This document shows, piece after piece, positions 1 to 8,120 of a stretch of 64,000 nucleotides of DNA. The number at the start of each line of letters is the position of its first letter. The stretch's first letter is position 1. A program made the translations under genes and the position numbers. Under the pieces are notes generated by a model, which worked only from the letters and a program-made list of their open reading frames with translations, ran no database searches and had not been told where the DNA came from. Origin of the DNA: Sporosalibacterium faouarense. Its GTDB lineage: Bacteria; Bacillota; Clostridia; Tissierellales; VENL01. Where the stretch lies: the NCBI RefSeq assembly GCF_016765695.1, contig NZ_JAETGO010000043.1:1-64000 (forward strand). Direction: 5' to 3'.

Positions 1-142
1 TCAATTCTACCTCGCTGACTTTCTGTCTACGCTTAAAATATTATGTCACCATAATATCTCCAAAACTCGATACAGGGCTGTTGGCTAGATTTACCCTGAC
101 GGGATTCACACCCGCTAGAATGTACGCCCTGCCAGGACGCAC
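1..142 (-). mobile_element. Group II intron, 5' end (partial, probably class C)
   Basis: Read on the minus strand from 142, this stretch begins with GTGCG, the canonical group II intron 5' end. It continues with short paired segments typical of domain I of bacterial class C introns, including the hairpin GCGGGTGTGAATCCCGT and the CCAACAGCCCTG segment. The rest of the intron, including any reverse transcriptase, lies left of the window. G+C is clearly higher than in the neighbouring genes, consistent with a structured RNA of foreign origin. Class C introns insert next to hairpins such as terminators or integron attC sites; the 5' exon here holds GACTAAC, an attC core-like heptamer. I rely on sequence resemblance, not on a folded model. 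Confidence 0.62.
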
Positions 143-207
143 CGCAAATATAGTGTTAGTCGATGTGGTTTATACTAAAACTTTTGTTTTGCTAGATTGA
201 CCTCAGC

Positions 208-1003: not shown

Positions 1004-1076
1004 GACTAACATCTCGGTGTTGCCGATGTACACATCAATCCGCTTTTCTGTGCATGTTGGCAACACTTTGTTAGAT
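1004..1076 (-). repeat. attC-like integron recombination hairpin
   Basis: An imperfect palindrome of 73 bases between two minus-strand genes. On the minus strand it opens with ATCTAAC, followed by AAA, then arm GTGTTGCC (1024-1017 partner at 1066-1059), and closes with GGCAACAC, a six-base spacer and GTTAGTC. Inner arms ATG-CACA and TGTG-CAT extend the stem with a two-base bulge. Order and sizes match attC: R'' (RYYYAAC), L'', L', R' (GTTRRRY; the last purine is T here). On the plus strand the closing heptamer GTTAGAT fits GTTRRRY perfectly, so orientation is not certain. There is no T tract, so a terminator is less likely. Confidence 0.6.
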
Positions 1077-1967: not shown

Positions 1968-2385
1968 TTTATCCCCCCAAAAGTTTGTAAATTTCTTGCA
2001 TCAGGAAATTCAAATAATTGTTTAAAAAATCGTCTCATATTTATAGAAAAAAGCACAGATACTTGTGGTATGGCTCATCTTATCGCAAGTAATTAATTTA
2101 ACTTGTCTGTTAATATAACCCCCAGGTTTACCTTTATCAAATTATATTATTAATTAAATTGAATACTTTGACCCTCTATGAAAGAATTTTATCTAGCAAA
2201 TATCTATCCTATTAGTACTTACAAATGAACTTAGATATCTCAACTACCAAAGTAAAATACTTCTTATCTTAGGTCTTATTATATTATTAAGAATGATAAT
2301 TAATATTAATTCTACTTAATGTGTTGATGTACACATATCTGCAGTTCCTTCATTTTCCAATGCTACTAAGGACCTTCTTATATCT
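1968..2385. other. A+T-rich intergenic stretch without a gene
   Basis: No supported ORF, RNA gene or terminator. At 2321-2338 a short hairpin (ATGTG...CACAT) shares the string GATGTACACAT with the centre of the attC-like site at 1004-1076. It may be a decayed copy, but it has no core heptamers. The rest is featureless A+T-rich sequence upstream of the acetyltransferase gene and presumably holds its promoter. Confidence 0.4.
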
Positions 2386-3390: not shown

Positions 3391-3434
3391 ATTATATCAT
3401 TAGTAAAGTTTGGTATTTGTTGTAAAATGTCGAA
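3391..3434 (-). promoter_or_regulatory. Island promoter copy 1 (TCGACA-N31-TGATATAAT)
   Basis: On the minus strand TTCGACA (3434-3428) is followed after exactly 31 bases by TATAAT (3396-3391), with an extended -10 (TGA before it) and no recognisable -35. The same design occurs at 4657-4699 and 6565-6608. TTCGACA equals the Spo0A 0A-box core. It would drive the unknown gene ending at 2386. Confidence 0.5.
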
Positions 3435-3475
3435 AATCCAATTATATTCTTAATCCTTTTTCCACTATTTTTAGC

Positions 3476-3508
3476 AAATAAAAAACACTACCTTTCTAGG
3501 CAGCGTTT
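3476..3508 (-). terminator. Rho-independent terminator, sigK-type repeat
   Basis: Minus-strand stem AAACGCTGCC/GGTAGTGTTT with loop TAGAAA and a T run. It follows the stop at 3527. Near-identical hairpins occur at 4754-4782 and 7271-7301. Confidence 0.8.
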
Positions 3509-3526
3509 AACTTTAGATTTTAATTA

Positions 3527-4656: not shown

Positions 4657-4699
4657 ATTATATCACTATTCAATTCTGTTGTTTACTAAAAATTGTCGA
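4657..4699 (-). promoter_or_regulatory. Island promoter copy 2 (TCGACA-N31-TGATATAAT)
   Basis: TCGACA (4699-4694) and TATAAT (4662-4657) are 31 bases apart on the minus strand, with TGA before the -10. Upstream bases AAGAATATAATTG are also identical to copy 1, so about 75 bases are related. It drives the RimJ/RimL-type gene. Confidence 0.5.
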
Positions 4700-4753
4700 G
4701 AGTTCAATTATATTCTTTATTTTCCTTTCTTTATGCTATATATAAGTTTATTG

Positions 4754-4782
4754 AAAAACACCACCCTCACAGGCAGTGTTTT
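4754..4782 (-). terminator. Rho-independent terminator, sigK-type repeat
   Basis: Minus-strand stem AAAACACTGCC/GGTGGTGTTTT with loop TGTGAG and a T run. It lies 175 bases beyond the stop of the acetyltransferase gene at 4957 and is almost identical to the hairpin after sigK. Confidence 0.8.
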
Positions 4783-6564: not shown

Positions 6565-6608
6565 ATTATATCATTACTAATCTGAAAAATTAGTTTTAAT
6601 TTGTCGAA
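6565..6608 (-). promoter_or_regulatory. Island promoter copy 3 (TCGACA-N31-TGATATAAT)
   Basis: TTCGACA (6608-6602) and TATAAT (6570-6565) are 31 bases apart on the minus strand, with the extended -10 TGATATAAT, exactly as in copies 1 and 2. It sits 57 bases before the TTG start at 6508. Confidence 0.5.
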
Positions 6609-7270: not shown

Positions 7271-7301
7271 AAAAAAACACCACCCTAACAGGCAGTGTTT
7301 T
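7271..7301 (-). terminator. sigK terminator
   Basis: Minus-strand stem AAACACTGCC/GGTGGTGTTT, loop TGTTAG, seven T residues. It is the presumed parent of the copies at 4754-4782 and 3476-3508. Confidence 0.85.
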
Positions 7302-7353: not shown

Positions 7354-8055
7354 CTACTTACAGCAAAATGCTTTACTTAACTTTTTCACTGCTCTCTTTT
7401 CAATTCTAGACACATAAGACCTTGATATTCCCAATCTTTTTGCTATTTCTCTTTGGGTCTTACACCCTTCACTGGTTAATCCATATCTTAATAAGATGAT
7501 TATCTTTTCTCTGTCCTTTAAGCATTTACTCATCTTCTGATACAATTTCTTAACTTGGATTTTTAAATCAACCTCATCGATTACATCATCAGCATCTGAT
7601 CCTAATATATCCATCAAAGAAATCTCATTGCCCTCTTTATCAATTCCTATTGGATCTTGAAGTGATACTTCTGATCTTGTTTTCTTGCTTGATCTTATAG
7701 TCATCAATATTTCATTATCTATACATCTAGCTGCATAGGTAGCCAGCCTAGTTCCTTTATCTCTATCAAAGGTAGCTATAGCTTTTATTAGACCAATTGT
7801 TCCAATGGAAATCAAATCGTCTTGGTCCCTTCCTGTATTATGATATTTCTTTACTATATGTGCTACCAAGCGAAGATTTCTCTCTATAAGTATATTTTTT
7901 GCTTCTTCATCGCCTTCCTCGTATCTCATTAAATATAGTTCTTCATCTTCTGGTGATAATGGTTGCGGAAATGAATTGTTATTAGAGATGTATCCTACTA
8001 GTAGAAAAACTGGTTTTAATAGGACCCCTAGTAATGTTAACAACTCGACCAACAT
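7354..8055 (-). CDS. sigK: RNA polymerase sigma-K factor
   Basis: Late mother-cell sporulation sigma factor, 233 residues. The hydrophobic N-terminal 20 residues ([19 protein letters not shown]) are the pro-sequence removed by the SpoIVFB protease. Region 2 follows with [13 protein letters not shown] and [13 protein letters not shown], and region 4 with RYGL and the helix-turn-helix [20 protein letters not shown]. The gene is uninterrupted, so there is no skin element in it. I chose ATG 8055 because GGAGGTG lies ten bases upstream; an in-frame ATG 18 bases earlier overlaps that ribosome site. A 19-bp inverted repeat covers the ribosome site. The glycan/sulfation locus at 35-50 kb carries promoters matching this factor. 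Confidence 0.96.
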
Positions 8056-8063
8056 GAGAAAAT

Positions 8064-8120
8064 ACACCTCCATTTTATAATAGCTTCTACTTAAGTATAT
8101 GTATTATAAAATGAAGGTGT
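8064..8120 (-). promoter_or_regulatory. 19-bp inverted repeat over the sigK ribosome site
   Basis: Arms 8102-8120 and 8064-8082 are complementary over 19 bases with one G-U pair, and the loop is 19 bases. In RNA the downstream arm would bury GGAGGTG, the sigK ribosome site. Between the arms lies CATATACT, a good sigma-E/sigma-K -10, so transcripts from that promoter would lack the upstream arm; then the repeat acts as DNA dyad or operator. Which applies depends on the start site. Confidence 0.55.

Follow-up and report, generated by a model that had tools for sequence, protein, structure and literature searches.

Canonical attC sites carry extrahelical bases that are read by the integrase (PMC3053210) and docked by its I2 helix (PMC7790495). 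The ability of the integrase to use folded single-stranded attC is attributed to I2; IntI1 is inactive once the helix is deleted, and intermediates are said to be lacking (PMC7790495). Integron arrays have also been described from diverse phyla, including archaea, with attI placed right after the integrase gene (Ghaly 2022; PMC9668308), and the integrases of those archaeal integrons carry the IntI-specific domain, which that study required (PMC9668308). For the Firmicutes, IntegronFinder 2 recorded one complete integron and a few orphan cassette clusters, known as CALIN (PMC9024848). attC sites can themselves be the targets of group II introns: the classic group IIC-attC introns occupy the bottom strand of attC, opposite in orientation to the cassettes, at TTGT/T (PMC7923331). 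Within the open-access full-text literature, we found no description of integrons whose integrase lacks I2.

The palindrome at positions 1004 to 1076 and its cassette cluster

The window analyzed here is the first 64 kb of one contig (C80) of the draft genome of Sporosalibacterium faouarense (4.12 Mb in 99 contigs). A first-pass annotation had described a 73-base folded site separating two minus-strand genes near its left end, and both the sequence and the predicted fold bear this out. Read on the minus strand, the site (1004 to 1076) is ATCTAAC AAA GTGTTGCC (inner part) GGCAACAC CGAGAT GTTAGTC, comprising R'' (1070 to 1076), a 3-nt spacer (1067 to 1069), L'' (1059 to 1066), L' (1017 to 1024), a 6-nt spacer (1011 to 1016), and R' (1004 to 1010). 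R'' matches the consensus RYYYAAC at 7 of 7 positions and R' matches GTTRRRY at 6 of 7, with one position off consensus. The L arms form eight perfect pairs, giving a clean stem without a bulge, and the inner part between them holds a further stem. As single-stranded DNA, the site is predicted to fold with -12.4 kcal/mol on the plus strand and -11.3 kcal/mol on the minus strand (z scores of -3.1 and -2.3, respectively, against shuffles).

The genes on either side are both on the minus strand. One encodes a GNAT acetyltransferase (1143 to 1967; Pfam Acetyltransf_1, 4.5e-18) and is the cassette gene that ends in this attC; the other encodes a lipoprotein-like DUF4309 protein (208 to 930; Pfam DUF4309, 7.6e-12) and is the next cassette gene.

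Low-GC DNA yields many weak hairpins, and the lower-scoring attC-like matches elsewhere in the window were at shuffle level, and a palindrome of this kind might be no more than a chance hairpin or might be a terminator or small repeated element. We regard that explanation as scarcely credible here. The first-pass annotation had proposed an attC covariance model as a check, and we used one (R1) built from 28 aligned attC-like sites of other loci, with the window site excluded from the seed. R1 recovered the site on the minus strand at 28.8 bits, a moderate score (E value of 5.9e-5, R1 E values being rough), and found no other match in the 64 kb even at an E value of ≤10. The site was also the best of the window in a scan by regular expression and stem. 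When R1 was run genome-wide, with 150 of 357 candidates scored, the window site was not among the matches listed, probably because the loose first look scored only those 150. The flanks, which were used by no search, also fit: ACTTC precedes R'' (array consensus, ACNTC), and AACAT follows R' (array consensus, GAMAT; counted as fitting). The L-arm sequence GTGTTGCCGATG/TTGGCAACAC recurs in an attC of another genome (G052), and the intron in the neighboring attC, described below, interrupts it at the position where other attC sites of this genome are split. The site is present in a single copy genome-wide and is therefore not a MITE, a REP, or another multicopy palindrome. Neither end carries a T-run, and the site therefore does not look like a typical terminator. 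No Rfam family matched the site, the sole Rfam match of the window being the group II intron at its left end. We conclude that positions 1004 to 1076 are a recombination site of attC type, belonging to a cluster of gene cassettes in a Firmicute, as the first-pass annotation had suspected.

To the left of the DUF4309 gene lies the 5' half of the next attC (143 to 161, minus strand; R'' GACTAAC at 155 to 161), which is interrupted by an intron in a layout like that seen on contig C96. The interrupting sequence belongs to a group II intron, of which the 5' part is present (1 to 142, minus strand; Rfam RF02005, 60.5 bits on 1 to 108); by its sequence, the intron starts with GTGCG at 142, and it is cut by the contig end. 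The last 63 bases of the window's left end, all within the intron, are identical to the end of C96, and this repeated intron accounts for the contig break. On the other side of the GNAT gene, a decayed R' (GCTAGAT; 2191 to 2197, minus strand) is the probable, if weakly marked, upstream border of the GNAT cassette; its surroundings read GCTAGATAAAATTCTTTCATAGAGGGTCAAAG, compared with GTTAGATGAAATTCTTTCAGAGAGGGTCAAAG at an attC of genome G001, and R1 gave no match at this position. To the right of 2200, a search of the window for cassette borders turned up one decayed R' by eye and no model matches.

In some cassettes, the two ends bear an inverted repeat of greater length (GTTAGATGAAGTTCTTTCAGTCAC and CTCTGAAAGAATTTCATCTAAC), as at 2160 to 2197 of the window and in two other loci (L002, 1480 to 1530; L003, 1510 to 1545 and 2550 to 2580); with such repeats, the R stem of a circular cassette would reach about 19 pairs. 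Further into the window is an intergenic element that recurs three times (3391 to 3509, 4657 to 4782, 6565 to 6608, and 7273 to 7301), consisting of a terminator-like hairpin, AAAAACACCACCCTCACAGGCAGTGTTTT, and an AT-rich stretch of 44 to 64 nt ending in TGTCGA. An intact gene for the sporulation sigma factor SigK (sigK; 7354 to 8073) is located about 5 kb away from these cassettes.

As assembled, the window cluster has at least two attC sites within 4 to 8 kb and no integrase nearby, which is how a CALIN is defined; the definition does not hold for the system as a whole, because the contig breaks in a repeated intron and the candidate integrase of the genome is on another contig, C43. The cluster is oriented leftwards, to the end of the contig, and its genes point away from any attI that we saw. 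The C43 platform therefore does not simply run into the window cluster, which may be a piece of its own or a stranded remnant.

A tyrosine recombinase without I2 and the attI-like region behind it

The first-pass annotation had proposed looking for intI within a few kilobases of the site. No integrase is encoded there, and the candidate found on C43 is not a canonical IntI. It is a tyrosine recombinase of 372 amino acids (C43, 108511 to 109629), encoded 264 bases from the contig end, that passed the cutoff of NF040815 (234 bits; cutoff, 220) and failed that of TIGR02249 (219 bits; cutoff, 265). Its match to the integron integrase model comes in two segments and leaves out the IntI-specific part. 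Neither the S. faouarense genome nor any of the 249 genomes of its order yielded a canonical IntI above the NCBI cutoff.

A scan of 84,980 genomes with a profile of the C43 recombinase yielded 80 loci, with relatives in Clostridia, Paenibacillus, Nitrospirae, Bacteroidota, archaea, and others. The distance from box I to box II was 91 to 94 amino acids in all 78 measurable proteins (133 in IntI1), and the insertion of about 40 residues that holds the I2 helix is absent from the C43 recombinase and from 78 of 78 measurable relatives. The catalytic R, K, H, R, H, and Y are kept, since R225, K250, H315, R318, H341, and Y350 were invariant in 14 aligned proteins. A further N-terminal domain of about 90 amino acids, with the motif GxxWxPxxKxWxxP, is present in many members; a fold search with this domain returned no match. 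An AlphaFold model of the recombinase was of middling quality (pLDDT, 72; pTM, 0.53).

It might be argued that the attC-like sites are the substrate of host XerCD or of some other ordinary recombinase, with the I2-less gene as a mere passenger. Xer enzymes are capable of acting on integrative elements in folded single-stranded form (PMC7790495), and the predicted structure of the C43 recombinase resembles archaeal XerA (Z score of 21) as well as VchIntIA. We nevertheless judge this account highly improbable. In a maximum-likelihood tree, whose root rests on two Xer rows and for which the IntI1 and Escherichia coli XerD sequences were entered by hand, canonical IntI formed one clade (100/100) with the I2-less proteins as its nearest kin, and Xer fell outside (100/100). 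The I2-less group itself was weakly supported (85/35), so that IntI may even nest inside it. The I2-less gene is, moreover, tied to the arrays by place and direction, and the core GTTAKRYGA is common to attC and to the attI-like sites beside that gene.

These attI-like sites were recognized from sequence only. Directly behind most of the 80 integrase genes, and behind that of C43, we found two dyads about 20 bases apart, followed by GTTAKRYGAMAT. The dyads resemble ACGACA..TGTCGT, and the crossover core is G^TTAKRYGAMAT, to which the core of attC from R' onwards (GTTATNT GAMAT) is equal. A numerical attI score did not separate real from shuffled sequences (69 of 81 versus 53 of 81 at a cutoff of 10), so the attI call rests on the dyads and the shared core as judged by eye. 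A breakpoint also falls in this region. A pair of Dehalococcoidia contigs shares 97.8% identity over a 4.4-kb stretch that runs through the integrase gene up to GTCTAAC in attI; exactly after this sequence the two diverge, with different genes beyond.

The placement of attC relative to the integrase gene was one-sided. Downstream of the 80 integrase genes (305 kb), 60 attC-like sites were in the array orientation and 3 were reversed; upstream, there were 10 in 610 kb, and the same scan of shuffled DNA gave counts of 2 and 4. In 20 of 33 loci, the first attC-like site lay 530 to 1350 bases behind the gene, or about one cassette. Within the order, the integrase was found in 10 of the 249 genomes and an attC model match in 17, with both in 7 (P = 1.9e-7); 3 genomes had the integrase without an attC match, and 10 had an attC match without the integrase at the threshold used.

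Those last 10 genomes are what would be expected if the arrays were orphan clusters of a lost or external canonical IntI and the nearby I2-less recombinase were of an unrelated Xer or phage type. CALIN are indeed known in Firmicutes, where the one complete integron is in Limnochorda (PMC9024848). We consider this explanation unlikely, though the less remote of the two involving another enzyme. The attC sites lie downstream of the I2-less recombinase gene, on one strand, in many phyla, and a conserved attI-like region follows that gene. Canonical IntI, found in 0 of the 249 genomes of the order, was also absent from 35 of the 40 genomes with an I2-less gene; the 5 that had both include none labeled Firmicutes. 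In the 64 kb surrounding the other tyrosine recombinases of the S. faouarense genome (on C68, C83, and C53), there was a single attC-like site, which is at chance level. The anatomy of the attC sites, described in the next section, differs from the canonical one in the very feature that I2 reads.

Several observations concern individual members of the recombinase group. On plasmid pHH1107 (L198, 2528 to 3193), a member of the I2-less clade is TnpF, beside strAB and tet(X3), and in L116 a clade gene is followed by an IS91-type transposase; part of the clade thus does something other than integrons. The integrase genes of L053 and L054 are broken by stop codons; these are among the clearest loci with integrase, attI, cassettes, and attC, and their close kin are intact. 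In L058, L059, L060, L067, L080, and others, as in S. faouarense itself, the contig stops no more than about 250 bases past the integrase gene, a probable effect of repeated cassettes on assembly.

Cassette arrays and the anatomy of their attC sites

At least 18 further attC sites were found on other contigs of the S. faouarense genome, many in tidy arrays in which the sites are aligned between same-strand genes and lie on that strand themselves: 7 in 5.5 kb on C25, 4 on C26, and 4 on C99. Fewer were present on C38 (two sites) and C96 (one site). R1 independently supported C96, C99, C26, and C25, with one C99 site being a member of the R1 seed, and supported C38 weakly. Tandem arrays in one direction, with a gene and one attC each, occur outside this genome as well (L105, L134, and L091). 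The first-pass annotation had named a low covariance score, a genome without an integrase, and a lack of similar sites as grounds for abandoning its reading; none of the three was encountered.

The left ends of C25 and C26 share exactly 63 bases, beginning ACGTTATATGACAG, behind two different attC sites, so that one cassette stands behind two different sites. The homology between these ends breaks at the G^TT core (ACG^TTATAT). Together with the divergence after GTCTAAC in the Dehalococcoidia pair, this breakpoint is at most an indirect sign of site-specific recombination between attC and attI or another attC by the integrase.

Introns interrupt L'' of attC twice on C96 and once in the window, in all cases on the cassette strand, and the insertion follows TTTGCA or TTTGCG. 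Same-strand group II introns in L'' of attC were noted at 1 to 161 of the window, in L046 (1650 to 1700 and 3960 to 4000), and in L040.

Comparison of the 28 seed sites of R1 revealed covariation. The R and L stems were paired in 84% of cells, versus 25 to 42% when the alignment was slid, and there were 115 double changes, versus 50 in shuffles. The sites have the palindrome R'' (RYYYAAC), L'', L', R' (GTTRRRY) by which an integron attC is recognized. R1 gave no matches on class 1 integron loci at an E value of ≤1, indicating that the model is specific to the attC type of the I2-less arrays.

Two features set this type apart, according to a scan in which spacer lengths were not imposed. An extrahelical base in the L stem was present in 0 of 23 sites of I2-less arrays, versus 12 of 16 sites at canonical IntI loci (P = 4.7e-7; the 16 are unique sites, counted by hand from a list in which sites found on both strands appear twice). 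The 3' spacer was 2 to 4 bases longer than the 5' spacer in 21 of the 23, whereas the spacers were equal in nearly all 16 canonical sites; our site scanner partly selects for spacer asymmetry, although the neutral scan shows it too. With I2 missing from the enzyme and the bulge missing from attC, enzyme and site lack their matching parts together.

We therefore propose, with a probability of roughly 0.8, that the window site belongs, as its attC, to a GNAT cassette of an integron type so far overlooked and run by an I2-less tyrosine recombinase. The machine would be a tyrosine recombinase that has the catalytic residues and lacks the IntI insertion with the I2 helix. attI would lie directly behind its gene, and cassettes of one gene and one attC would continue in the direction of that gene. 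A folded single attC strand of a cassette would recombine at G^TT with attI or with another attC; insertion at attI, together with shuffling and loss between attC sites, would lead to the gain, loss, and reordering of cassettes. Polarity, and with it the choice of strand, may come from the unequal spacers (1 to 4 nt after R'' and 5 to 6 nt before R'), which would take the place of the extrahelical L-stem base. In S. faouarense, the integrase and attI would be those at the end of C43, with pieces of array on C25, C26, C96, C99, and C38, and the window cluster would be a further piece that the C43 recombinase may serve.

More broadly, we lean towards the view that these loci belong to a large and ancient branch of integrons in Clostridia, other bacteria, and archaea, in which the integrase never had I2 and the spacers carry polarity. 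Such a branch would be related to the state that preceded IntI and would include many orphan clusters.

Comparison with known systems

The system behind the window site is probably a new integron variant with a testable mechanism. If the proposed reading is true, a sister group that has attI, attC, and cassettes and lacks I2 and the bulge makes the origin of integrons directly testable. Many orphan cassette arrays would become complete integrons, Firmicutes and archaea would have cassette-capture systems of their own, and integron detection software would need to change.

Several described elements resemble parts of this system. Like the group IIC-attC introns, the introns of this genome are group II introns inserted in attC; unlike them, they lie on the cassette strand and in L'', and so are not of the group IIC-attC kind. 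The XerA and NF040815 recombinases (4a8e and 5hxy) share the fold and length of the catalytic core with the C43 recombinase, in keeping with its NF040815 score, whereas the C43 group has the N-terminal domain in many of its members, is associated with attI and attC, and groups with IntI and not with Xer. The IS91-associated TnpF belongs to the same I2-less clade, but in its setting on pHH1107 it has no attC arrays. Standard software would call the I2-less arrays CALIN, because IntegronFinder requires the IntI-specific domain; unlike CALIN, many of them are headed by a dedicated recombinase and an attI-like site.

The closest systems are integrons themselves. Archaeal integrons share the position of attI behind the integrase gene and differ in that the integrases described here are without the IntI-specific domain. 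With the canonical integrons (class 1 and the Vibrio superintegrons), the I2-less arrays have in common the R''/L''/L'/R' boxes, the G^TT core, an attI beside the integrase gene, and one-gene cassettes in one direction, and IntI is the nearest kin of their recombinase by sequence. They are unlike canonical integrons in that the integrase has no IntI-specific insertion and is transcribed with the array and not away from it, that attI lies behind the gene and has two dyads, and that the attC sites have unequal spacers and no bulge in the L stem. Although the system is taken to work like an integron, its I2-less integrase lacks the feature used to define and detect integron integrases, and for this reason the enzyme has not been filed as IntI.
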